A stretch of 64,000 nucleotides of DNA, taken from NCBI GenBank assembly GCA_030831965.1, contig JAURJZ010000007.1, positions 1 through 64,000 on the forward strand. Direction: 5' to 3'. The translations under genes were made by a program, and so were the position numbers. The stretch comes from Verrucomicrobiota bacterium (lineage in GTDB: Bacteria > Verrucomicrobiota > Verrucomicrobiia > Opitutales > UBA953). A model generated the notes under the pieces. That model was given only the letters and a program-made list of their open reading frames with translations. It ran no database searches and was not told the DNA's origin. Within the stretch, counting starts at the first letter, position 1, and every line of letters begins with the position of its first letter. Shown here piece after piece: positions 9,005-37,289 of this stretch.

Positions 9005-12000
9005 ATGGCCCGCACCGCGTCCCGCTCCTACCGCCTGGCCCACGCCGCCCTGCTCTCGGTCCTCGTGGCCCTCGCCGCCCTGCCCGCGAGCTCGCCCGGA
9101 CAGGCCGCGAAACCCGCGCCCGCCAAGGAGGAGGAGAGCCCCACCCAGCGGCTCTGGAACGAGGCCGAGACCGCCCTCGGCAAGAAGCAGTACAAGGCGG
9201 CCCTCGACCTGTTCAAGAAACTCGAGGGCGAGTCCGACAAGGCCGGTCTCCCCGAGATGGCCAAGGCTGCCATCGCCTTCCGCCAGGCCACCTGCCTCTA
9301 CCTCATGGCCGGCCAATCCAAGAAGACCGAGGATTGGGCCAAGGTCGAGGAGGCCCTCAAGGGCTTCCTCGCCAAGTACCCCCGGGGCACCGAGACCCTC
9401 CTCGACCCCTCGAACAACATGCGCGGGGTGGTCCGCCTCTCCCTCATCGAGGTCTACGCCAACCTCTCGAAGTGGGACGCCGCCCTCGCCGACCTCGAGG
9501 CGCTCCGTCGCCCCAGCCCCGAGATCCGGGCCGAGGACCGCGTGCTCGCCTTCGTGCTGACCGCCAAGGTCCTCGAGGAGAAGGCCAAGGGGCAATCCGA
9601 GCCCGAGCTCAAGCTGGCGCTCAACCAGGCCATGAACCTGCTCAAGCAGGTCACCGCCGCCGGCATCGGGACAAGCGAGAGCCGCGAGGCCGCCAACAAG
9701 CTCGTCGAGGTCTACACCAAGCTCGGCATGGCCAAGGAGGCCGAGCAGCTCCGCGCGGAGATCGAGGCCAAGGGCGGCGGCTCGCCCGCCGAGATGGTCC
9801 GCGCCAACGTCCAGCGCCTCGAGATCGGCGACGCCCGCTTCCAGGCCGCCGAGGAGGCCTCCGACGGCAAGGCCCGCGAGACCCTCTACCGCCAGGCCCT
9901 CGCCAGCTACCAAGGCACCCTGCGCCGCGCCGCGCTCGCCCGCGCGCTCGGCCAGGCCGTCGAGTCGAAGCAGGCCGAGGTCGACCAGCTCAACCGCCTC
10001 TACGCCAAGCCTGACGACAACCAGAAGGCCCTCATCGACAAGGCGAAGGAGGAGGTCGACTCCTTCAAGAAGATCCAGGCCGAGTTCACCGCCAACAAGG
10101 ACTACGACGCCGTCATCGCCTACCGCATCGGGCTCTGCCTCCTGGAGCTCGGCCGCCCCTGGGAGGCCTTCGTCGCCTTCCGCGACATCTTCCAGAACAA
10201 CCCGGGCTTCGAGAAGGTCTCCGGCGCCTATTACTACTACATCGACGCCCTGCGCCGCATCGGCCGCAACGACGAGGCCCAGAAGGTCAGCCGCGACTTC
10301 CTCCAGAAATACCCGGACTCCCCCGAGGTGGCCCCGATCGCGGTCGGCCTCGGCGAGATCTGCATGGAGCAGGAGGAGTACGACAAGGCCATCGAGCAGT
10401 TCAGGTGGGCCAAGGCCAACGTCCGCAACCTCGACCCCCAGGCCCAGCAGGAGATCGACTTCGGCATCGTCCGCGCCCTGTTCTCCAACGTCGACTGGGC
10501 CAAGGCCCGCGCCGCCCTCGACGAGTTCCTCGCCAAGCACCCCAAGTCGCCCGCCCGCGAGTCGGCCCTGTACATGCACGGCCTGACCTGGTTCTTCGAG
10601 GGCCGCTACCGCGAGACCAAGGCCTCGCTCGAGAAGTACATGGCCGAGTTCCCCAACGGCCAGTACCAGGCCGACGTCCTCTACCGCCAGGGCATCGTCG
10701 CCCTCAACGTCCAGGGGCCCGACGAGGCCATCGCCATCGCCAAGCGGTGGCTGGACAAGCACGGGAAGTCCAAGGCCGAGGCGATCGTCGCCCAGGTCCC
10801 CGAGCTCCACGTGCTCATCGGCGACGCCCACACCAAGAAGGCCGAGCTCCTCGGCCGGAAGGCCGGCGAGGCCGAGTACAAGGCGCGCGTCACCGCCGCC
10901 CCCGGTCCCAAGGCCCAGCACATGAAGGCCAAGGCCGAGGCCGAGGCCGCCAAGGAGGAGCAGGTCAAGGCCTCCATCGAGGCCTACCTCGTCGCCGTCC
11001 GCGCCGCCCGCTCCAACCCGCAGGTGCTCGACTTCGCCATCGGCGAGGTCAACAAGCTCCTCACCGGCCGGGGCGAGCAGAGGCGCCTCCGCGAGATCTA
11101 CCAGGAGCTCTACGACTGGGACCCCAAGGCGCCCAAGGCCCTCTCCTACCTCTACGAGGTCATCAAGGCCACCGAGAAGATGGGCGACGGCGCCGAGTTC
11201 CGCGCCCGCACCGAGGCCGCCCAGTCGCGCTTCGGCGACCTGCTCGCCGCCGCCCGCAGGAAGGTCGACACCCTGGAGCGCGCCGGCAAGCCCAACACCC
11301 CCGAGCTGACCCAGGCCAAGGCCGAGGTCGCCAAGCTCTCCGACGACCTCGCCAAGGACCTGGATGCGGTCGAGGCCGACCGCCAGAAATCCATCCAGGC
11401 CGCCCGCCAGGAGGCGCTGGGGATCCTCGGCGCCGCCCTCAAGAGCAGCCTCAACGACCGACGCCAGGAAGGCGCCGAGCGCCTCGTCGCCTTCCTCGCC
11501 GAGAAGCTCGCCCGACGCATCAAGCGCGTCCGGCCCGGCCAGGAACCCGCCCCCGACGCCTACACGCTCAAGAAGGCCGAGGCCGACCTCGAGGCCACCA
11601 TGGGCGTGACCGAGTCCAGCGGCAGCCTCATCGCCCAGGCCCGCCTCTACTACGGCAAGGGCACCCTCGCCCTGCTCGCCCGCGACCCGGCCCGCGCCGA
11701 GTCGATGTGGCGGCGCATCGCCGACCTCTACAAGGCGGAGGAGCTCAGCCCCGGCATCCTCGGCACGGTCGGCGATTACCTCGCGTCCAAGCAGGATCCC
11801 AAGGCCGAGGCCTACTTCGCCTACATCGCCGAGCACCACCGCTCCTCCGAGTACGCCGACTTCGGCTTCGCGGGCCTCGCCGAGGTCCGGCTCGCCCAGG
11901 GCAAGGCCAAGGAGGCCCTCGCCATCGCCGACGAGGCCACGGCGATGGGCATCACCCTCTCGAAGGAGAAGGACCTCCGGTTCACGCGGGCCCGGGCCTT

Positions 12001-12346
12001 GGTCGAGCTGGGCCAGTTCGACGAGGCCAAGAAGGAGCTGACCTACATCAGCGGCGTCCGCGAGTGGCGCGGCGAGACCACCTCGGGCTGCCTCTACCAC
12101 CTCGCCCTCATCGAGGAGAAACAGGGCCGGATGCAGGAGGCCGTGGTGCTCCACCAACGCAACATCCTCGCCTGGAAGAAGCACGAGCGCTGGGTCGCCC
12201 GCTCCTACCTCCGGGCCGGCGAGCTCCTCGCCAAGCTCGGGCAGCGCGACGCCGCCCGGGCCACCTACCAGGAGATGCTGACCAAGGACCGCGTGAAGGA
12301 CACGCCCGAGGCCCAGGAAGCCCGCTCCCGCCTCACCCGAATCTGA
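9005..12346 (+). CDS. giant secreted tetratricopeptide repeat protein
   Basis: An 1113-residue protein with an N-terminal signal peptide (hydrophobic core AALLSVLVALAALPASSPGQA, about residues 13-33). The rest is lysine/alanine-rich helical repeat. Clear TPR-type units include QYKAALDLFKKLEGESDKA, DYDAVIAYRIGLCLLELGRP, and EYDKAIEQFRWAKANVRNL. A charged coiled-coil segment lies near residues 745-800. It is the first gene of a run ending in ExbB-ExbD-ExbD, 5 nt before the next gene. Such TPR proteins may dock partners onto the ExbB/ExbD motor in the periplasm; that role is inferred from context. No enzymatic motif is seen. Confidence 0.8.
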   Translation: MARTASRSYRLAHAALLSVLVALAALPASSPGQAAKPAPAKEEESPTQRLWNEAETALGKKQYKAALDLFKKLEGESDKAGLPEMAKAAIAFRQATCLYLMAGQSKKTEDWAKVEEALKGFLAKYPRGTETLLDPSNNMRGVVRLSLIEVYANLSKWDAALADLEALRRPSPEIRAEDRVLAFVLTAKVLEEKAKGQSEPELKLALNQAMNLLKQVTAAGIGTSESREAANKLVEVYTKLGMAKEAEQLRAEIEAKGGGSPAEMVRANVQRLEIGDARFQAAEEASDGKARETLYRQALASYQGTLRRAALARALGQAVESKQAEVDQLNRLYAKPDDNQKALIDKAKEEVDSFKKIQAEFTANKDYDAVIAYRIGLCLLELGRPWEAFVAFRDIFQNNPGFEKVSGAYYYYIDALRRIGRNDEAQKVSRDFLQKYPDSPEVAPIAVGLGEICMEQEEYDKAIEQFRWAKANVRNLDPQAQQEIDFGIVRALFSNVDWAKARAALDEFLAKHPKSPARESALYMHGLTWFFEGRYRETKASLEKYMAEFPNGQYQADVLYRQGIVALNVQGPDEAIAIAKRWLDKHGKSKAEAIVAQVPELHVLIGDAHTKKAELLGRKAGEAEYKARVTAAPGPKAQHMKAKAEAEAAKEEQVKASIEAYLVAVRAARSNPQVLDFAIGEVNKLLTGRGEQRRLREIYQELYDWDPKAPKALSYLYEVIKATEKMGDGAEFRARTEAAQSRFGDLLAAARRKVDTLERAGKPNTPELTQAKAEVAKLSDDLAKDLDAVEADRQKSIQAARQEALGILGAALKSSLNDRRQEGAERLVAFLAEKLARRIKRVRPGQEPAPDAYTLKKAEADLEATMGVTESSGSLIAQARLYYGKGTLALLARDPARAESMWRRIADLYKAEELSPGILGTVGDYLASKQDPKAEAYFAYIAEHHRSSEYADFGFAGLAEVRLAQGKAKEALAIADEATAMGITLSKEKDLRFTRARALVELGQFDEAKKELTYISGVREWRGETTSGCLYHLALIEEKQGRMQEAVVLHQRNILAWKKHERWVARSYLRAGELLAKLGQRDAARATYQEMLTKDRVKDTPEAQEARSRLTRI

Positions 12347-12351
12347 GAACC

Positions 12352-13305
12352 ATGCGCACCCTCGCCCCCGCCCTTCTGCTGCTCGCCGCCGCCGCGCTGC
12401 CCGCCCAGGTCGTCACCTTCAAGAGCGGCGAGCGCTGGGAGGTCAACAACCCCTTCCAGCTCGACGCCAAGGGCCAGCCCGTGGTCGACGCCAAGAAGGC
12501 CCGGTTCAACACCACCTTCGACCGCCTCGAGCGCAAGACCACCAGCGGCACCATCGAGGTCGTGGCCAACCGGAAGATGGAGGAGGTCGTCCAGATCGAG
12601 TGGCCGGCCATCGCCCAGCTCGACCAGGCGCGCCAGATGATCCTACGCGGCGAGGCCGCCAACGCCCTCGAGCTCGTCGAGACCGTGCTCCGCCCCTTCG
12701 ACAAGGTGAAGAAGGTGCCCGGGAGCCCCTGGGTGACCGCCGCCATCGTCAAGCTCGACGCCATCGACCGTCTCGACAACGACGCCGCCCTCGCCGCCTT
12801 CCTCTCGGCCCTCGAGTCGGTGGACGACGGTTCCAACGCCGAGCTCGCGCAGAAGATCAAGCTGGCCAAGCTCATCCAGAAGGCCCGGCGCGGCGAGCAC
12901 GCCGCCGTGGTGGCCGACGCCGACGGGCTCATCTCCCAGTTCGACGGGGCCGACACCCTCGCCCGGCTCCACATCCTCAAGGGCGCCTCGCTCCTCGCCC
13001 TCAAGCGCTACGAGGACGCCATGAACACCTACCTGCGCGTGCCCGTCTTCTACGGCTCCCAGCAGGAGCACCTGCCCAAGGCGCTGCTCGGCGCGGCCAA
13101 GGCCTTCCGCGGCATGGACTCGCCCGCCACCAAGTCCCAGCGCCTCGGCGAGGTCGCCAACACCTACCTCCGGGAGCTGGTCGCCACCTTCCCCGTCTCC
13201 GTCGAGGCCGAGGAGGCCAAGGCCCTCCTCCCCAGGGAGGATCGACAGGCCGCCGAGAAGGCCCAGTCCGGCCTGCCCACCCAGGGCGCCGCCGCCCCCC
13301 AGTGA
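12352..13305 (+). CDS. secreted helical-repeat protein next to ExbB
   Basis: A 317-residue protein with a signal peptide (residues 1-19, ending ALPAQ). A short N-terminal beta-rich region (VVTFKSGERWEVN) is followed by helical repeats such as LDQARQMILRGEAANALELVETVL, shown here only to its key DQAR...NALEL pattern. It ends in a Pro/Ala-rich tail. It lies 5 nt after the giant TPR gene and 43 nt before exbB, so it is likely part of the same functional unit. I do not recognise a named family. Confidence 0.65.
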   Translation: MRTLAPALLLLAAAALPAQVVTFKSGERWEVNNPFQLDAKGQPVVDAKKARFNTTFDRLERKTTSGTIEVVANRKMEEVVQIEWPAIAQLDQARQMILRGEAANALELVETVLRPFDKVKKVPGSPWVTAAIVKLDAIDRLDNDAALAAFLSALESVDDGSNAELAQKIKLAKLIQKARRGEHAAVVADADGLISQFDGADTLARLHILKGASLLALKRYEDAMNTYLRVPVFYGSQQEHLPKALLGAAKAFRGMDSPATKSQRLGEVANTYLRELVATFPVSVEAEEAKALLPREDRQAAEKAQSGLPTQGAAAPQ

Positions 13306-13309
13306 GTCC

Positions 13310-13338
13310 TTGCACCCCGCCGACAACCCCGCTATTCC
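13310..13338 (+). promoter_or_regulatory. candidate internal promoter of exbB
   Basis: TTGCAC (13310-13315), 17 bp, TATTCC (13333-13338), then 10 nt to the ATG at 13349. Predicted leader is only a few nucleotides. It lies immediately after the upstream stop codon. Confidence 0.5.
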
Positions 13339-13348
13339 CAAGACACCC

Positions 13349-14143
13349 ATGACCCCCAGCCTCCGCACCCCCCTCGCGCTGGTCCTGATGACCGCGCTGA
13401 TCCACGCCCAGGAAGCCGCCGCCCCCGGCGTCAAGGAGAAGACGATGATGGACATCTTCCACGAAGGCGGGTGGGTGATGTACCCCCTCCTCATCAGCTC
13501 GATGCTGATGGTCTGGCTCGTCATCGACGGCTACATGAAGACGACCAAGAAGTACGCCTACCCCGCCGACCAGGTCGAGCAGATGCGCAACTACTTCGCC
13601 ACCGGCGACTACCGGGGCGCGTACGCCTACGCCCAGAGCTCCAACTCGCCCTTCGCGGAGATCATCCGCTCGGGCCTCAAGATGGCGCCCGAGGGCAAGG
13701 AGATGACGGAGGAGGCCATGTTCGCCGAGATCGCCCGCATCAACGGCGACATGCAGGGACGCATCTCCTACCTCTCGGTGCTCGGCGTCTGCACGCCGAT
13801 GATCGGACTCGTCGGGACCGTCGTCGGCATGATGAGCGCCTTCGACACGCTCGGCAGCTCGGGCGTGGGCGACCCTTCCAAGCTCGCCGGCGCCATCGGC
13901 GAGGTGCTCGTCGCCACCGCCTCGGGCCTGGCCGTCGCCATCCCGTCCTTCATCTTCTACTACCTCATCCGCAACCGCGTCGCCGAGAACCTCCACGACC
14001 TCGGCGAGCTCGCCACCTCCTACTTCCGGGCCTTCCCCTACGAGGAGATCTCCGGCAAGATCAGCGAGATCGGCGCCGAGCCGCCCATCGCCGCCGCCCC
14101 GGTCTGGAATCCCGCCCAGGAAGCCGCCGGCAGCCAGGGCTAA
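13349..14143 (+). CDS. MotA/TolQ/ExbB proton channel family protein
   Basis: A 264-residue inner-membrane protein of the ExbB/TolQ family, which forms the pentameric stator around an ExbD/TolR dimer and uses the proton gradient. It has an N-terminal signal-like segment (about 1-20), then three membrane helices: GGWVMYPLLISSMLMVWLVI, LSVLGVCTPMIGLVGTVVGM, and VLVATASGLAVAIPSFIFYY. The PMIGLVGTVVGM motif is the family core. The N-terminal signal segment is frequent in environmental ExbB homologues. Two ExbD genes follow, so the complex probably contains two different ExbD subunits. The partner transducer is not adjacent. Confidence 0.88.
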   Translation: MTPSLRTPLALVLMTALIHAQEAAAPGVKEKTMMDIFHEGGWVMYPLLISSMLMVWLVIDGYMKTTKKYAYPADQVEQMRNYFATGDYRGAYAYAQSSNSPFAEIIRSGLKMAPEGKEMTEEAMFAEIARINGDMQGRISYLSVLGVCTPMIGLVGTVVGMMSAFDTLGSSGVGDPSKLAGAIGEVLVATASGLAVAIPSFIFYYLIRNRVAENLHDLGELATSYFRAFPYEEISGKISEIGAEPPIAAAPVWNPAQEAAGSQG

Positions 14144-14164
14144 CCCCCAACCCGAACCAAGACC

Positions 14165-14605
14165 ATGGGAGGAGGAGGGGGAGGAGGGGACGGGGAACCG
14201 GAGTTCCAGGTGGCGCCGATGATCGACGTCCTCCTGGTGCTGCTCATCTTCTTCATGTCCATCACCTCGGCCCAGGTGCTCAAGGTCGACAAGAACATCG
14301 AGCTTCCCCTCGCCGTCCACGGCAAGAAGCGCGACGACAAGGCGGCCGCCGGCCTGATCAACATCTCCTGGGACGCCACCACCGGCCAGGCCAAGTACAA
14401 GCTCGACGACCGCGAGCTCGACCCCAACGACAAGGAGGGAATCGCCCGCGAGCTCGCCGCGCGCAAGGGCAACAACAAGGACTTCCGCCTCCTCATCCGG
14501 GCCGACAAGTCCTGCCACGCGAAGTTCATCTCCAAGGCCCTCGAGTGGGGCGGCGAGGCCGGCATCGACAACATCGCCTTCTCCGGGCTCAACAACGAGA
14601 ACTGA
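14165..14605 (+). CDS. ExbD/TolR family protein 1
   Basis: A 146-residue single-helix inner-membrane protein. A glycine run at the N-terminus (residues 2-8) precedes FQVAPMIDVLLVLLIFFMSI, the membrane helix carrying the essential proton-binding Asp (Asp21). The periplasmic part (about 45-146) has the ExbD alpha/beta fold pattern, ending in FISKALEWGGEAGIDNIAFSG. It lies 21 nt after exbB and 3 nt before the second ExbD. The start is fixed by the ATG immediately before the glycine run; the sequence GGAGGAGG inside the gene is coding, not an RBS. Confidence 0.88.
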   Translation: MGGGGGGGDGEPEFQVAPMIDVLLVLLIFFMSITSAQVLKVDKNIELPLAVHGKKRDDKAAAGLINISWDATTGQAKYKLDDRELDPNDKEGIARELAARKGNNKDFRLLIRADKSCHAKFISKALEWGGEAGIDNIAFSGLNNEN

Positions 14606-14608
14606 CCG

Positions 14609-15058
14609 ATGGCCAAGGATCGCGCCAAGGGCGTCACCAACCCCGACGTGGGCTTCCAGATCGCCCCGATGATCGACGTGGTGTTCGTCATCATGCTCTT
14701 CTTCATGGTCATGGCCGGCGCCGTGAAGGTTGAGCACGAGCTCAAGACCACCCTGCCCGGCAACGTCGAGACCGCCCAGGAGACGGAGATGCCCGACGAG
14801 CTCACCATCTCCGTCGCCGAGAACGGCCAGGTCTCCCTCAACGACGAGCCCGTGGGCACCCCCACCGACCGCGAGCTCACCGGGCTCTACCAGGAGATGG
14901 TCCGCGCCCGGAAGAACGCCGAGAGCGGCAAGACCAAGCTCCTCGTCACCGTCCAGGCCGAGGAAACCACCCGCTACGAGCGCGTCATCAACGTGCTCGA
15001 CATCCTCGCCAAGGCCGAGGTGAGCAACGTCACCTTCGCCGTCGCCGAGCCGGAGTGA
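14609..15058 (+). CDS. ExbD/TolR family protein 2
   Basis: A 149-residue ExbD paralogue. The helix FQIAPMIDVVFVIMLFFMVM carries the conserved Asp (Asp23). The periplasmic domain contains DELTISVAENGQVSLNDEPV and the C-terminal YERVINVLDILAKAEVSNVTF. It differs from ExbD1 in the cytoplasmic tip, which is basic (MAKDRAKG). Co-encoded divergent ExbD pairs may form a heterodimer inside the ExbB ring. A terminator follows its stop codon. Confidence 0.88.
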   Translation: MAKDRAKGVTNPDVGFQIAPMIDVVFVIMLFFMVMAGAVKVEHELKTTLPGNVETAQETEMPDELTISVAENGQVSLNDEPVGTPTDRELTGLYQEMVRARKNAESGKTKLLVTVQAEETTRYERVINVLDILAKAEVSNVTFAVAEPE

Positions 15059-30189: not shown

Positions 30190-31571
30190 CGCGGGGGGCG
30201 CAGGGCGTCCTCAATCCTCCGGGCCAGCGGGTCCGGCGCAAGCGCCCACCAAAGCTCATCCGGGCGGACCGAGAAGGGGATGGCGCGTCGACCGGGCGCG
30301 GAGGGGGCGTCGGGACCCGTGGCCTGGAGCAGCCAGACCTCGGCCTGCGCCGCCTCGGGCACCGCCCCGTAGGCGACGCGGAGACCTCGCAGGTAAAACG
30401 GGAAAGGCCAGACATGGTCGCCCTGGACGAGGACGAGCGAGGGTCGCATCCCGGATTCGCCGGTCAGGGCCGAGGCGAGGGCGGGGACATCCCGGCGGGT
30501 CTCCACGTAGTCGTAGCGACCGGGATGGGAGAGCAGGCCGACGAGGACGACGGCCGACGCCTGCAGGGGCCGTCGCGCGCGCGACCCGAGCAGGCCGAGC
30601 CCACCCGGGAGAACGAGCGTCAGGAGGAGAAAATCGGGGCCCATCGTCAGCCACGACGTCTTGTAGGGCAAGGCGAGGTGAACAAGGTAGACAAGACCGG
30701 CGGCGAGCAGGAGGAAGTCCGTCGCCAAAACCTTGCCCACACGCCCCTCACCCGGCGTCAGGAAGCGAAGGGCGGCGGCCGCGGCGAGCAAGCCGCCCGT
30801 GAAGCACCAAGGAAGCGGCGAGCCCATCGGGAGCGGTGGCTCGCTCACGCCCGAGGCCAGGCCGAAGGCCCGGAAGAACTGCGCCCACCAGGTTCCCAGG
30901 GCCGGCAGATCGGCCAGGAAGGAGCTCTGCCAGAGCACCCACGAGCCGATTGTCCCGGCAACGAAGACCGCAAAGCCCCTCCAGCCGGGGCAGGACTGCC
31001 GGAGGATGAGAACCGCCAAGGCGGCCAGGCCGAGGTGCATCGCTGCCGTGATCTTGCAGGCCAGCGCGAACCCGGCGCAGAGTCCGGCCAGGAGACGGAA
31101 GCGCGCCTCGCCCGCGGGACCCGACCGAATCCAGAGGGCGGCGGCCCAGGTGAGCGCCGCGGCCATCAGGGGTTCCTGGATGAACCGGACGCTGGCGGGG
31201 GCGAGGAGGACGGCCAGGGCGACCGCCAGCCCGCCGGGGACCGCGCGCGAGGGAAGGACCAAGGGAATGAGGAGCAGGCTCAGGCCGAAGGCGAGCGGCA
31301 CGGCGCGGAGGCCGGTGGCGGTGGCCGAGGCGACATCCGCGCCGGCGACCGCATGGGCGGCGCGGCTCAGCAGGCCGAGGGTGGGTCCGTGGAAACGGTC
31401 GCCGGTCCCGCTGTGGGGCGCGGCCTCGGAAGCCAAGGCCCATTGCCCGGCCTCGTCGGCGTGAAAGGGCCGATCGATGAACGCCCAGGCGATCCAGGTC
31501 GCGGCCAGCAGGACCGCCGGCAGGATCCAGAGCGGGGGCCGCGGCGCGGCGCCGGCGCTCCCCTCCTCCAT
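30186..31571 (-). CDS. PMT-like membrane glycosyltransferase (TIGR03663/Agl23-like)
   Basis: A 461-residue polytopic membrane protein with about 10-12 helices. The first periplasmic loop after helix 1 has RPFHADEAGQWAL, the acidic DE site typical of GT-C glycosyltransferases (PMT/ArnT type). LACKITAAMHLGLAAL is another characteristic segment, and a soluble C-terminal tail follows (about 370-461). It resembles the flippase-associated Agl23 group; that assignment is from memory of the fold, not a search. It is coupled to its neighbours by 1-nt and 4-nt overlaps. Substrate is unknown. Confidence 0.65.
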   Translation of the reverse strand: MEEGSAGAAPRPPLWILPAVLLAATWIAWAFIDRPFHADEAGQWALASEAAPHSGTGDRFHGPTLGLLSRAAHAVAGADVASATATGLRAVPLAFGLSLLLIPLVLPSRAVPGGLAVALAVLLAPASVRFIQEPLMAAALTWAAALWIRSGPAGEARFRLLAGLCAGFALACKITAAMHLGLAALAVLILRQSCPGWRGFAVFVAGTIGSWVLWQSSFLADLPALGTWWAQFFRAFGLASGVSEPPLPMGSPLPWCFTGGLLAAAAALRFLTPGEGRVGKVLATDFLLLAAGLVYLVHLALPYKTSWLTMGPDFLLLTLVLPGGLGLLGSRARRPLQASAVVLVGLLSHPGRYDYVETRRDVPALASALTGESGMRPSLVLVQGDHVWPFPFYLRGLRVAYGAVPEAAQAEVWLLQATGPDAPSAPGRRAIPFSVRPDELWWALAPDPLARRIEDALRPPR

Positions 31572-31987
31572 CAGCGGAACCGCGCCTCGAGGGCGCGCTT
31601 GACCTCGGCGGGGATAAGGGCGGCCTGCATCGCGCCCTGCCCCTCGCGCCAGGCGTAGACGGTGGCCAGGCTGCCCTTGGCCACGGGCTTTCCGGCCACG
31701 GAGGCCTCGAAATCCCAGCGGATGCGCTTGTCGCCGATCTCGCCCGCGGCCAGGGCGAGGGTGACGCGGTCGCCGCGCTCGACCGGAGCCAGGTAGTCGC
31801 AGGTCACGGCAACGCGGGGAAAGCCGCGCAAGATCGCTCCCTCGCGGCGGATGAAGGGCAGGCCGAGCTCGGCGAAGACCGCCTCCTCGGCGCCCTCGAC
31901 CCAGCGGAAGACGGTGGTGAAGTGGACGATGCCCGCCGCGTCGGTGTCGGCGAAGGCGGCGATGAACTCGGAAAGGTGGGGGCGCAT
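31571..31987 (-). CDS. YbgC-like acyl-CoA thioesterase
   Basis: A 138-residue hotdog-fold protein. The family motif FADTDAAGIVHFTTVFRW holds the catalytic Asp16. RVAVTCDYLAPVERGDRVTL is the second strand pair. YbgC thioesterases hydrolyse short acyl-CoAs and are often encoded with Tol-Pal genes. Here it is 2 nt after the VWA1 gene, and its stop overlaps the next start (TGATG). This links a Tol-type accessory gene to the TonB-like VWA proteins upstream. Confidence 0.82.
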   Translation of the reverse strand: MRPHLSEFIAAFADTDAAGIVHFTTVFRWVEGAEEAVFAELGLPFIRREGAILRGFPRVAVTCDYLAPVERGDRVTLALAAGEIGDKRIRWDFEASVAGKPVAKGSLATVYAWREGQGAMQAALIPAEVKRALEARFR

Positions 31988-31989
31988 GG

Positions 31990-33045
31990 TCAGCGCGCGG
32001 GCGGGGCGCGGCCGACCTCCACCATTGCCACGCTCCCGCCGGAGGCAACCGCGCATTGGCGAAGGAAGGCCTGCGGCTCGGTCTCGCTGGAGAACAGGTA
32101 GAGGCGCGGCGCCCGGCCGCGCGGGGCCTCGGCGAACCGATCGAGCCAGGCCTTCCGCCAGCGGTCGTCGCCCGGCCGCCGCTCGTCCACCCGCCGCCGC
32201 TTGCTGTCGGCGTAGACCAGCTCGGGCGGGCCCTTGGCGGGGTCGCGGTACTGCCGGATGCCGTCCTGGAAATCCGAGAAGACGACCAACCCGTCGTAAG
32301 GCTCCTCGAGCATCCAGTCGATCCAGGCCCCCAGCGAGCCGGCCTCGCAGCGGGACGCGATCCGGTCGAGCAGCCGACGGCCCTCGGACGTCATCGTGGC
32401 GGGGTCCGACAAGCCCGGGCGGCGCGGCGAGGAGGGGCCGTCGTATCCCCTGCCCTCCGCCACCCGCCCGTCGACGACGATGACGCGCGCGCCGTCGAAC
32501 CGGAACACGTCGGCGTCGGGGAATTCCCTCCGAATCTCCGCCTCGACGCGCGCAAGGTGCGGACGCATCGAGCCGGAGCAATCGAGGTAGACGGCCAGGC
32601 GGCGCGCCGCGACGCGCGCCCCCATCACCGGCCTGCCAACCCAGCCGGCGCCCGTCCCGCCGAGCGCGGCACCGGCGGACGCGCCCACGCCGCCTCCGAA
32701 GCCGCCCAAGCCGGTCCGCGCCGCGCCGGCAGGACCGGCCAGGCCCAGGCTGGGCACCGACGGAAGCGCGGGGCTGGCCGGGAGGGCCATCACCGCGTCG
32801 GCCGACCGCGAGAGGATGCGCCCGGAGGGGGCTGAGGGCGGGGGACGCCGCGGCGCCTTCGCCTGGATTGTCCGGGCCGCGGGCGACCCGCCCGACGGAA
32901 GGGCGAAGACGGGGTCGGCGGGCGGCTTGGCAGGCTCAAGGACGGACCGGAAGACCCAGACCAAGGCCAAGCCCACCAAGGCGGCGTGAAAGCCGAGGCT
33001 GACCAGCCACGGGGCGGCGCCGGAAGGGGGAGCATGGGGACGCAT
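31990..33045 (-). CDS. VWA-domain protein 1 with TonB-like N-terminal anchor
   Basis: A 351-residue membrane-anchored protein. The single N-terminal helix (about 13-32) contains Ser16-x3-His20 (VSLGFHAAL), the same spacing as the S16/H20 pair of TonB that couples to ExbB/ExbD. A Pro/Ala/Gly-rich periplasmic linker (about 40-130) ends with GRPVMGARVAARRLAVYLDCSGSM, where DCSGS is the MIDAS motif of a von Willebrand A domain (about 145-330). FSDFQDGIRQY is the second metal-binding part. It is a paralogue of the adjacent VWA2. The start ATG follows a leaderless promoter motif. Confidence 0.78.
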   Translation of the reverse strand: MRPHAPPSGAAPWLVSLGFHAALVGLALVWVFRSVLEPAKPPADPVFALPSGGSPAARTIQAKAPRRPPPSAPSGRILSRSADAVMALPASPALPSVPSLGLAGPAGAARTGLGGFGGGVGASAGAALGGTGAGWVGRPVMGARVAARRLAVYLDCSGSMRPHLARVEAEIRREFPDADVFRFDGARVIVVDGRVAEGRGYDGPSSPRRPGLSDPATMTSEGRRLLDRIASRCEAGSLGAWIDWMLEEPYDGLVVFSDFQDGIRQYRDPAKGPPELVYADSKRRRVDERRPGDDRWRKAWLDRFAEAPRGRAPRLYLFSSETEPQAFLRQCAVASGGSVAMVEVGRAPPAR

Positions 33046-33051
33046 GACGCA

Positions 33052-33080
33052 TCCCAAGAGCGCGACGCAGCCAGGTTCAA
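33052..33080 (-). promoter_or_regulatory. candidate leaderless promoter of VWA1
   Basis: On the minus strand TTGAAC (33080-33075), 17 bp, TTGGGA (33057-33052), then 6 nt to the ATG at 33045. The -10 match is poor; geometry is the main support. Confidence 0.33.
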
Positions 33081-33118
33081 CCGCGCCCAGCCGGGGTTCC
33101 TCACCCGGTCAGGATGAC

Positions 33119-34402
33119 TCAGCGGGGCGGCCGGTAGGACTGGGGCTGGACGGGCGTGACCGGGTTGGCGGCGGCGGCGCCGGCGTCGGGCGGAGGCCCC
33201 GGGGGCTGGCCGCCGGTGCGAAGCCAGCCGACGTCCTTGATCTCGCCGCCGGAGAGGTCGACGCACGAGGCGATGAGCCTCTGGGGCTGGACCTGGGTGG
33301 TGAAGCAATAGAGCCGGGGACCCTGGCCCTCCTTGGCCTTGGCGAAGGTGTTGGTCCAGTCGAGCTCCCAGCGCTGGTCGTTCTTGCCGCGGTTGTTCAC
33401 CGGGTCGCGGATGCCGTCCTTGTAGATGACCTCGCCGGCCTTGTTGCGCTGGATGACGCCGTCCTGGAAGTCGGAGAAGACGACGAGCGCGTCGTAGTTC
33501 CGCTCGCGCATCATGACGTCGAGCCAGGCGCCGGCCGAGCCGCGGCGGAAGTTGTCGTCGTACTTGCGGAAGAGGTTGCGCCCCTCGGTGGTGAGCGTCT
33601 TGGGGTCGGTGGTGAAGGCGTTGGGATCCTGGGGCGCGGTGTTGTTGCCCTTCATGGTCTTCCTCCCGCCCACGATGCCCTCCTCCTCGACAAAGGTGAA
33701 GGCGCCGTTGTAGCGGAAAATGTCGGCCTCGGGGAACTGGCGGCGGATCTCCTCCTCGACCCGCGCGAGATAGGGCTGCATCGACCCCGAGGCGTCCAGG
33801 TACACGGCGATCCGGGTGGCGACGATGCGCGCGCCCATCACGGGCTTGCCGACGAAGTTGCGGGCATTGCCGACGCCGACGCCCTGGCCGGAGCCGATGC
33901 CCCCGCCGGAGCCGCCGCCGAAGCCCTTGGAGGAGCCGCCGGCGGTCATGCCCGTGAGGAGCGAGGCGACCGAGGTGGTCGGCAGGTCGGGGAGGGCCAC
34001 CGAGGCCGTGCTCGACTTGCTCGTGATGCGGGCGGAGGTCCGGGCGATGGCCTGGGCGTTCTTCGGCGCGACCTTGTGGTCGCGGATGACCGCCTTCTCG
34101 CCCTTCGAGCCGCCGCCGGCGCCGGTGGCGAAGGTCTCGGGCTCGCCCCCGGCCTCGTCGGTGATGGTCACAATCACCCAGGCCGCGAAGAGCAGGAGAA
34201 GGGCGCCGTGGAAGGCCAGGGAGACCAGCAGGCCCTGGCCACCGATGCGGTCCCAGAGCCGCGTCCTGCGCCGGCCCAGCGAGGCCTCGGAGGATCCGGG
34301 GAGGGTCTCCGCGTCCCCGGCGGCGGGGTCCGCGTGGGCGCCATCCCCCTCGGTCGGAGGGGGCATGTCTTCCGGCAACCCTTCGGGCGGGGTCAGGGAC
34401 AT
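33119..34402 (-). CDS. VWA-domain protein 2 with TonB-like N-terminal anchor
   Basis: A 427-residue paralogue of VWA1. An acidic, Pro-rich cytoplasmic N-terminus (about 1-50) leads to a membrane helix (about 57-78) with Ser61-x3-His65 (VSLAFHGAL), the TonB-type coupling motif. A Gly/Ser-rich linker (FGGGSGGGIGSGQG) precedes GKPVMGARIVATRIAVYLDASGSM with the MIDAS motif DASGS. VVFSDFQDGVIQ and a Pro/Ala-rich tail follow. No TonB C-terminal domain is present. Its gene is divergent from DUF1800 and is transcribed towards VWA1, 73 nt away. Confidence 0.8.
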   Translation of the reverse strand: MSLTPPEGLPEDMPPPTEGDGAHADPAAGDAETLPGSSEASLGRRRTRLWDRIGGQGLLVSLAFHGALLLLFAAWVIVTITDEAGGEPETFATGAGGGSKGEKAVIRDHKVAPKNAQAIARTSARITSKSSTASVALPDLPTTSVASLLTGMTAGGSSKGFGGGSGGGIGSGQGVGVGNARNFVGKPVMGARIVATRIAVYLDASGSMQPYLARVEEEIRRQFPEADIFRYNGAFTFVEEEGIVGGRKTMKGNNTAPQDPNAFTTDPKTLTTEGRNLFRKYDDNFRRGSAGAWLDVMMRERNYDALVVFSDFQDGVIQRNKAGEVIYKDGIRDPVNNRGKNDQRWELDWTNTFAKAKEGQGPRLYCFTTQVQPQRLIASCVDLSGGEIKDVGWLRTGGQPPGPPPDAGAAAANPVTPVQPQSYRPPR

Positions 34403-34452: not shown

Positions 34453-34513
34453 CGCTCCCCGGACGAACTTGAGTCCGCCTTGGGGGTTAATAGCATGGAA
34501 AGGACAAGACCCT

Positions 34514-36001
34514 ATGTCGGCCACCCCGCCCCTCCCCCCTCCCGAACGCGCCTGGCAACCCTTCGACACCCGCCGCTGGGACGAGGGCTGCGCCCGCCAC
34601 CTGCTCCGGCGGATGGGCTTCACCGCCACGCCCGCCGCCACCACCCAGGCCCTGCGCGAGGGGCCGGCGATGACCGTCCGACGCGCCTTCTCCGCGGTGC
34701 GCCCGATGCCGATGCCGGACAAGCTGGCCGACCTGGCGGAGGACAGCGACAAGAACCGGGAGAAGCTCAAGACGCTCACGCCCGAGGAGCGGCGCGAGTT
34801 CGTCCAGGAGCTGCGCCGCAAGTCCGAGGCCGCGATGCGCGACTACAACGTCGAGTGGCTCGAGTTCGCCCGCCGACCCGAGATGAGCGCCCAGGAGAAG
34901 CTCGTGCTCTTCCTGCAGGACATCTTCGTGGTGAACAACGAGAAGATCCGCCGCACCGAGACCCTCTTCGACTACCAGGCCCTCATCCGCTCCCACCTCG
35001 ACAAGGATTACACCTCCCTCGTGCGGGCGGTGATGAAGCATCCCGCGATGGTCGAGTTCCTCGACCTCGGCCAGAACCGCAAGGGCAAGCCCAACGAGAA
35101 CTTCGCCCGCGAGCTGTTCGAGCTCTTCTGCCTGGGCGAGGGCAACTACACCGAGGCCGACGTCAAGGAGGCCGCCCGGGCCATGACGGGCGTGACCCTC
35201 CGCCGCGGCACCTTCCTGGTCGACCCGAACCAGCACGACGCGGGCGAGAAGGTCATCTTCGGCCAGAAGGGCAGCTTCAACCCCGACACCCTGGTCGAAC
35301 TCACCATGCGGCAGCCGGCCGCCTCGGCCTACGCCCCGCAGGAGCTGATCAAGTTCTACCTCGTGGCCGAGGGCCTGCCCCGGGCCTACGCCCAGGCCTT
35401 CGGGCGCGTCTGGAAGCAGTCCGGCCACCGCATCGCCGAGCTCCCGCGCATCCTCTTCAACTCCGAGATCTTCTACCACCCCGCCTTCCGGGGAAAGCTG
35501 ATCAAGTCGCCCATCGCCTACTACCTCGGCCTCTGCCAGGACCTCGGGGTCGACGTGGTCCCCTACCCCGCGCCGGTGGTCAACGCCCTCCGCGGCATGG
35601 GACAGCCCTTCTTCAACCCGCCCAACGTGCGGGGCTGGATCTACGGGCGCAACTGGATCAGCTCGACCACCCTCGCCGCGCGGCGGGCCGTCGCCCGGGG
35701 CCTCTTCGCCCCGGTCAACGAGGAGCGGCTCAACGCCGACGAGCAGGCCGCCCTCAAGGAGGCCCGCGCGGCTGGCCGGGGCAACTACGTGGTGACGCCC
35801 GACCGGCTGGAGTACCTCGCCAAGAACCGGACCGACGCCGAGATCGTCGTCCATCTCTGCAACTACTTCCTGCCGGCCCCGGTCAGCCCCGAGTTCCGCA
35901 AGGTCCTCGAGGAGCACCTCAAGCCCGACCAGAACCGCGTCCGCAGCATCCAGGAGGCCGTCGTGGCCATCCTGCAGGCCCCCCTCTACCAACTCTCCTG
36001 A
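34514..36001 (+). CDS. DUF1800 family protein
   Basis: A 495-residue protein of the DUF1800 family, common in Verrucomicrobiota and Planctomycetota and nearly always paired with DUF1501. Typical segments are HLLRRMGFTATPA near the N-terminus, LVLFLQDIFVVNN, KGKPNENFARELFELFCLGEGNYTE (key NENFARELFELF) and FNPPNVRGWIYGRNWI. No signal peptide is visible. Biochemical function is unknown. It ends 4 nt before the DUF1501 gene, so they form a two-gene operon. AAAGGA at about -11 may serve as a weak SD. Confidence 0.85.
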   Translation: MSATPPLPPPERAWQPFDTRRWDEGCARHLLRRMGFTATPAATTQALREGPAMTVRRAFSAVRPMPMPDKLADLAEDSDKNREKLKTLTPEERREFVQELRRKSEAAMRDYNVEWLEFARRPEMSAQEKLVLFLQDIFVVNNEKIRRTETLFDYQALIRSHLDKDYTSLVRAVMKHPAMVEFLDLGQNRKGKPNENFARELFELFCLGEGNYTEADVKEAARAMTGVTLRRGTFLVDPNQHDAGEKVIFGQKGSFNPDTLVELTMRQPAASAYAPQELIKFYLVAEGLPRAYAQAFGRVWKQSGHRIAELPRILFNSEIFYHPAFRGKLIKSPIAYYLGLCQDLGVDVVPYPAPVVNALRGMGQPFFNPPNVRGWIYGRNWISSTTLAARRAVARGLFAPVNEERLNADEQAALKEARAAGRGNYVVTPDRLEYLAKNRTDAEIVVHLCNYFLPAPVSPEFRKVLEEHLKPDQNRVRSIQEAVVAILQAPLYQLS

Positions 36002-36005
36002 ACCC

Positions 36006-37289
36006 ATGAGCCTCCGCCTCACCCCCCACACGCGCCGCGAATTCCTCGCCACCTCCGGCCGCGGCCTCGGCTTGGTGGCCTTCGCCGGCTTCGCCCCCTC
36101 CTTCCTCGTCCAGTCGATCAAGGCCGAGACGCCGAAGGCCGAGAAGGACCGGAGCATCCTCGTGCTCGTCCAGCTGGCCGGCGGCAACGACGGGCTCAAC
36201 ACGGTCGTCCACCACGAGAACGACGGCTACCACCGGCTGCGCCCCAACCTGGCGCTGCGCCCCGCCGCGGGCCTGCTCAAGGTCGACGACCAGATCTCGC
36301 TCCATCCGTCGATGGGCAAGATGCACGAGCTGCTCAAGGAGGGCAAGCTGGGCGTCGTCCAGAACGTGGGCTACCCCAACCCGAACCGCTCCCACTTCCG
36401 CTCGACGGAGATCTGGGAGACGGCGTCCGACAGCGACAAGGTGGCCTACGACGGCTGGGTCGGCCGCTATTTCGACGCCGACTGCGCCGGCGCCCCCGGC
36501 AAGGACCCCCTGGCCATCCACGGCGGCAGCGTCCTCCCGCAGTCCTTCCAGTCGTCCCGCAACCACAACATCTTCGGGCTTGGCGGCGGCGTCGGCCGCG
36601 GCGCGCGCAAGGGCTCGAAGTCGCCCTCCGGTGGCAAGGAGGAGACCGAGCTGCTGATGGACCTCAACGCGGCCGCCCTTCCCGGGGTCGACGAGAAGGA
36701 CCCCTCGGACAACACCCACTACCTCCGGCACGCCATGATGGACGCGCTCCTGACCGAGAGCCGGGTGGCCGAGACCATCGCCGCCTACAAGCCCTCCGTC
36801 GCCTACCCGGCGAGCAACCTCGGCCAGTCCCTCCAGCGCATCGCCGCCCTCATCGCCTCCGGCATGGAGACGCGCGTCTACTACGCCACGCTCGGCGGCT
36901 TCGACACGCACGCCAACCAGCTCGGCCGCCACGCCCAGCTCCTGCGGGACCTCAGCGACTCGCTCGCGGCCTTCCAGGCCGACCTGGAGAAGAAGCGCCT
37001 GGACCGCCAGGTCCTGACCATGACGTTCTCGGAGTTCGGGCGGACCGCGCGCGAGAACTCGACCGTCGGCACCGACCACGGCACCGCCGCGCCGCTGTTC
37101 GTCATGCACACCGGGGTGAGGCAGGCCGTGACCGGCACCCCGCCCAGCCTGGACCTCAAGCCCGGCCAGGACGTCACCTTCTCGACCGACTTCCGCCAGG
37201 TCTACGCCACCGTGCTCAAGGGCTTCCTCAAGTCGGATCCGGCCAAGGTGCTCGGCAAGGCGGGCTTCAAGGACGTCGGCTTCATCTGA
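36006..37289 (+). CDS. DUF1501 family Tat-exported protein
   Basis: A 427-residue protein of the DUF1501 family (alkaline-phosphatase-like fold). The N-terminus has a twin-arginine signal: TRREFL (Arg10-Arg11) followed by hydrophobic LGLVAFAGFAPSFLV, so it is exported folded. LVLVQLAGGNDGLNTVV and RSHFRSTEIWETA are family signatures, with TMTFSEFGRTARENSTVGTDHG (key FGRT...GTDHG) near the C-terminus. It follows DUF1800 by 4 nt and ends just before a strong terminator. The physiological role is unknown. Confidence 0.88.
   Translation: MSLRLTPHTRREFLATSGRGLGLVAFAGFAPSFLVQSIKAETPKAEKDRSILVLVQLAGGNDGLNTVVHHENDGYHRLRPNLALRPAAGLLKVDDQISLHPSMGKMHELLKEGKLGVVQNVGYPNPNRSHFRSTEIWETASDSDKVAYDGWVGRYFDADCAGAPGKDPLAIHGGSVLPQSFQSSRNHNIFGLGGGVGRGARKGSKSPSGGKEETELLMDLNAAALPGVDEKDPSDNTHYLRHAMMDALLTESRVAETIAAYKPSVAYPASNLGQSLQRIAALIASGMETRVYYATLGGFDTHANQLGRHAQLLRDLSDSLAAFQADLEKKRLDRQVLTMTFSEFGRTARENSTVGTDHGTAAPLFVMHTGVRQAVTGTPPSLDLKPGQDVTFSTDFRQVYATVLKGFLKSDPAKVLGKAGFKDVGFI

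Follow-up and report, generated by a model that had tools for sequence, protein, structure and literature searches.

The closest described relatives of the two proteins considered here are the vWA force transducers proposed by Williams-Jones et al. 2025 (PMC12204202), which according to the text of that paper combine an S-x3-H (SHLS) helix, a disordered linker, and a vWA head, and are encoded behind TPR-tolQ-tolR-tolR genes, an adjacency worded there as "often"; in an AlphaFold3 model from the same paper, a related vWA transducer has its His at the motor site, and the text names no phenotype known to its authors for such transducers. Also described in that text are TPH-vWA proteins accompanied by TolQ only; these too are vWA proteins anchored in the membrane and linked to a TolQ-like motor, but they lack S-x3-H and have an ExbD-like pore helix with Asp, whereas the proteins described below combine S-x3-H with separate ExbDs. 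For TonB itself, Ser16 and His20 touch ExbB Ser34 and Trp38 in the solved Escherichia coli complex (PMC12215075), and the TonB D-box binds ExbD (PMC10907165).

The window, a 64,000-nucleotide stretch of DNA from a Verrucomicrobiota bacterium of the Opitutales (contig JAURJZ010000007.1), encodes two tandem paralogues on the minus strand: VWA2 (33119..34402; ATG start, 427 aa) and VWA1 (31990..33045; 351 aa from the ATG at 33045, the longest open reading frame beginning at a TTG at 33057). The proteins are 41% identical and share a three-part build: a single hydrophobic helix at the N-terminus, which bears S-x3-H, is followed by a linker rich in Gly and Pro and then by a C-terminal domain some 210 residues long. 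The VWA2 helix (34163..34240, minus strand; residues 40-82 in the predicted model) carries Ser61 and His65, with codons starting at 34222 and 34210; its periplasmic linker (33848..34156, minus) has a Phe about 26-28 residues past the His, an R-I-x(8-12)-LPxxP element, and a Gly-rich stretch, and is predicted to be disordered over about 100 residues (pLDDT <50 for residues 82-182); and its head, of the class that we call VWA-A, lies at 33203..33847 (minus), with DASGS at residue 203. VWA1 has its helix at 32938..33012 (minus), with Ser16 and His20 (codon starts 33000 and 32988) in a numbering that presumes the ATG start at 33045, and its VWA-A head at 32011..32634 (minus), with DCSGS at 155 and FSDFQ at 256. 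A sequence-only reading of this locus had described both proteins in these terms, and its coordinates, residue numbers, and motifs proved correct.

VWA1 and VWA2 resemble TonB in the S-x3-H helix (in VWA1 at identical residue numbers), the periplasmic linker, and the globular C-terminal domain, but they carry a VWA head in place of TonB_C, for which a Pfam scan finds no match in either protein, and a Gly-rich linker with R-I...LPxxP where TonB has a polyproline stretch and a D-box at 45-51. Both the Phe 26-28 residues past the His and the R-I...LPxxP element are conserved in the anchor linkers, and by position and pattern one or the other could be a counterpart of the D-box. TolA of the TolQR-TolA system shares the S-x3-H helix, the three-part layout, and a motor of the same superfamily; unlike TolA, VWA1 and VWA2 lack the TolA C-terminal domain, no tolB or pal neighbours are seen by eye, and the thioesterase gene next to them is not a YbgC equivalog. 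That gene, which encodes a 4HBT-family thioesterase (31571..31987, minus strand) and starts 2 bases past the VWA1 stop, had been taken for YbgC-like; at 18.9 bits against an equivalog cut-off of 141, we rejected it as a marker of a tol-pal locus. A thioesterase gene also accompanies the VWA pair in two relatives, G102 and G299. On the other side of the pair, divergent from VWA2, lie genes that look DUF1800- and DUF1501-like by eye (34480-37289, plus strand); DUF1501, the one of the two that was searched for, is not conserved beside VWA-A genes in the relatives searched.

We take the heads of VWA1 and VWA2 to be a divergent VWA fold, on the basis of a profile match to a sister class and of the predicted fold, because neither protein reaches the cut-off of any family in Pfam or NCBIfam. 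Specifically, i) the VWA-A class alignment matches that of the sister class VWA-B, whose members pass the Pfam VWA_3 cut-off, with an hhalign probability of 96.9%; ii) the MIDAS DxSxS motif and a downstream Asp (D203, S205, S207, and D311 of VWA2) are kept in 29/29 VWA-A proteins; and iii) the trimmed VWA2 head is predicted with a mean pLDDT of 84.8, and its best VWA-type matches in Foldseek are TFIIH p34 (probability 0.97) and the CLCA1 VWA domain (0.91), in a search that returned nothing at E <= 0.001 and in which the SGNH-fold PatB also scored 0.80-0.85. The full-length model was of no use in Foldseek, since 173 of its residues are disordered, and a profile search of solved structures did not help either. 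Near 8788-8931 of L113, in genome G241, a VWA-A-type match belongs to a protein without the S-x3-H anchor, seemingly with a Tat-like signal at its start.

The anchor motif was followed by profile searches of 388 Verrucomicrobiota genomes and in 77 neighbourhoods fetched around whole-genome matches; our home-made gene caller overcalls antisense frames in GC-rich DNA, so that statements on neighbourhoods are based on homology searches. An alignment of 10 VWA-A proteins from Opitutae (A2), selected by the VWA protein regardless of the motif, has both Ser and His in 10/10. Its profile finds the full VWA class in only a few genomes of the phylum sample, but shows anchor and linker to recur on many other proteins; a broader anchor profile was required. 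Among 99 Verrucomicrobiota anchor proteins the His is present in 99/99, a count slightly biased in that the profile was seeded from His-containing anchors only, and the Ser in 91/99, the others having Ala (5) or Thr (3). Other single-anchor open reading frames from the same loci have S-x3-H in 0/134 and any His in the membrane segment in 5. The motif is therefore more than chance, and its conservation among homologues, on which the sequence-only reading had staked its proposal, is borne out.

Behind this one anchor-linker stand several head classes: PA14/GLEYA-like (34 proteins), VWA-A (27, plus the two in the window), VWA-B (22), and a squalene-cyclase-like toroid (13), and in representatives PA14, VWA, and SQHop_cyclase_C score above the Pfam cut-offs. 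Anchor proteins are also multiplied within genomes: in the seven genomes in which all candidates were scored we count 4 (the window's own genome, in 5 pieces), 4, 1, 6, 4, 10, and 11, so that six of the seven have 4-11 transducers. Most of these seven genomes have only one strong ExbD1-type match among the matches listed, and for the genome with 11 anchor proteins none of that strength is listed. The eleven anchor proteins of that genome (G384, contig C1) include several in frames longer than 600 aa and with heads that have no assigned identity. The window's own genome has at least two PA14-type proteins, both cut by a contig end; C33 and C85 share an identical stretch of PA14-type gene pieces, and C90 and C16 probably belong to one PA14-type gene. 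The assembly breaks inside PA14-type paralogues (C33/C85 and C90/C16), apparently from similar anchor-linker DNA between copies. In another genome (G012, L096:8229-11238), transducer-type proteins encoded behind ExbB-ExbD-ExbD have a SAM domain before the S-x3-H helix, which places it on the cytoplasmic side; the domain is recognised in the first protein as PF00536 (E 2e-18) and in the second by eye, and a third SAM-like open reading frame follows.

The window also contains a candidate motor operon, at 9005-15058 on the plus strand, in the order TPR-X-ExbB-ExbD1-ExbD2: a TPR-like periplasmic protein (9005..12346), X, a secreted-type protein of 317 aa (12352..13305), ExbB (13349..14143), ExbD1 (14165..14605), and ExbD2 (14609..15058). 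Relatives of the TPR protein are encoded upstream of ExbB in transducer operons, relatives of X occur in many of those operons, and the overall make-up is the same. Both ExbDs retain the membrane Asp, and ExbB retains the TM1 Ser, the TM3 Pro, and both pore motifs (GTV and ATASG). Operons of this type in relatives close with an anchor-linker gene whose head is VWA, PA14/GLEYA-like, or the squalene-cyclase-like toroid; the window operon ends without a transducer gene, and VWA2 and VWA1 lie 17 kb off, a distance that is about 20 kb in G102 and G299.

Across the 77 neighbourhoods, an anchor gene lies directly beside ExbB-ExbD-ExbD genes of the window's operon type, on the same strand, in 24: by protein, 14/22 VWA-B (three of them scored as downstream through overlapping stop-to-stop frames, and adjacent in any case), 8/13 toroid, and 2/34 PA14, with three further PA14 genes and one further toroid gene within 2.5 kb of the motor. 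No VWA-A gene, the class of the window, had a motor as neighbour in the roughly 8-10 kb covered (0/27). ExbD1 is of a specific type, with 32 matches in 31 of the 388 genomes at E < 1e-43 and a sharp gap to the next match at 1e-28; anchor matches occur in 30 of these 31 genomes, the exception being G078, and conversely all 81 genomes whose anchor match is strong (E of roughly 1e-20 or lower) have an ExbD match (both tallies were read by eye off printed tables). Homologues in genomes without ExbB/ExbD, which would have spoken against the proposed motor, thus did not turn up among the strong matches, an overlap that is only mildly informative in that 290 of the 388 genomes have an ExbD match. The operon linkage of the sister classes supports an ExbBD motor driving these anchors. 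The proposal of an ExbBD-driven, TonB-type anchor without a TonB domain thus gains support from motif conservation, the 24/77 linkage, and the 30/31 co-occurrence, but falls short for VWA-A itself in its 0/27 linkage.

One corollary of that proposal, that the motor would occur in genomes lacking TonB, did not hold. TonB_C is present in 30 of the 31 genomes with the window-type motor; we therefore rejected the anchored VWA proteins as a replacement of TonB, and conclude that the anchored proteins work beside the Ton system and not instead of it. Similarly, the absence of tonB and tolA applies to the window but not to the genome, which encodes a single TonB_C protein, on contig C61, and a TolA-like gene on contig C38, both outside the window. 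In the C61 protein (L001) the anchor His is kept and the Ser four residues earlier is not (GVGIGH). The C38 locus (L029:5943-8687) encodes an ExbB-ExbD pair and then an SVIIH-anchored protein whose C-terminus is TolA/TonB-like by eye.

Because the genome has other ExbB/ExbD sets, including the C38 pair with the canonical S-x3-W of TM1, the partner motor of VWA1 and VWA2 is not certain. In ExbBs of the window type the TM1 Ser is mostly kept, and the Trp, if present, is found one residue later and is absent in deeper lineages; with the Trp out of register, the anchor contact may therefore differ in detail from that of TonB. This difference, together with the fact that VWA-A genes adjoin no motor, would fit VWA1 and VWA2 being energised by a different motor such as the C38 ExbB-ExbD pair, but we consider this unlikely: C38 has an S-x3-H partner gene of its own, the anchors co-occur with window-type ExbD1 in 30 of 31 genomes, and the sister classes sit in that very operon. 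We therefore keep the window operon as the most likely motor in what follows.

Whether the anchor is energised at all could also be questioned. VWA domains are common protein-interaction scaffolds, and conserved contact residues indicate binding at most, so that the helix might bind ExbB and thereby position or regulate the motor, with the head serving as scaffold or sensor and no force being transmitted. Such passive docking seems improbable to us, given that a helix, a long disordered linker, and a globular head make up the layout of TonB and TolA, and that the anchored proteins take the operon slot expected for TonB. A further possibility is that S-x3-H is a remnant from a TonB-like ancestor and that the VWA-A orphans no longer touch a motor, as their departure from the operon (0/27 linked) would allow; against this, every VWA-A protein whose N-terminus is complete retains the motif, amid surrounding residues that vary.

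The relation of VWA2 to its PA14-type paralogue bears on the same point. Between the anchor-linkers of VWA2 and PA14b, both from the window's genome, identity is 75% (80% in DNA), as against 41-51% between VWA2 and VWA-A proteins of other Opitutae, with whose VWA domains its own is 51-52% identical; and for 18 of the 99 anchor modules the nearest neighbour comes from the same genome but a different head class. These identities and neighbours point to exchange or conversion of the anchor-linker module between head classes, and the apparent homogenisation of the VWA2 anchor with that of its PA14 paralogue, together with a motif kept amid variable residues, argues for present-day constraint; we accordingly hold it very improbable that the motif is a mere remnant.

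We thus consider it likely that VWA1 and VWA2 are TonB/TolA-like force transducers in which a VWA head replaces the TonB C-terminal domain, with the window operon most likely supplying the motor. Docking, energisation, partner, and cellular role are here inferred as follows: the S-x3-H helix would dock on the outside of an ExbB pentamer, whose most likely source is the TPR-X-ExbB-ExbD1-ExbD2 operon; the linker box would probably engage the ExbD periplasmic domain; the linker would span the periplasm; the VWA head would use its MIDAS site to grip a putative partner in the periplasm or outer membrane; and proton flow would put tension on the partner so held. The transducer set of this genome would then comprise two VWA and two PA14/GLEYA-like proteins on a common anchor-linker module.

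The idea of ExbBD-driven VWA anchors that the sequence-only reading put forward is not new, since the same anchor and operon were proposed for vWA transducers in 2025, as the text of PMC12204202 sets out. Most probably VWA1 and VWA2 join that proposed family as new members, representing a class no longer located in the motor operon; unlike the transducers described in that text, the window genes are 17 kb away from the operon, and their class, VWA-A, is not seen beside a motor. What appears to be new is that heads are interchangeable, that transducers are multiplied, and that VWA and PA14 anchor-linkers are homogenised within one genome: the text of PMC12204202 mentions no PA14 or squalene-cyclase heads and no multiple head classes on one anchor-linker, and in the main text of open-access articles we found no account that combines ExbB/ExbD with PA14 or squalene-type heads.

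We wish to raise one broader reading, to which we give about even chances, namely that one proton-driven ExbB-ExbD1-ExbD2 motor serves many transducers per cell, with swappable heads on a common S-x3-H anchor-linker, copies scattered over the genome, and anchor-linkers homogenised from one head class to another. Ton and Tol are regarded as two fixed-head systems, and if the reading is true, this toolbox would be their modular, multi-output counterpart, and would offer a first way into the functions of a large, mostly unannotated set of Verrucomicrobiota proteins. The anchor His and the motor operon make the idea of one motor with many heads testable; and if one motor type does drive unrelated head folds, force from the inner membrane of diderm bacteria would reach beyond import and outer-membrane constriction.
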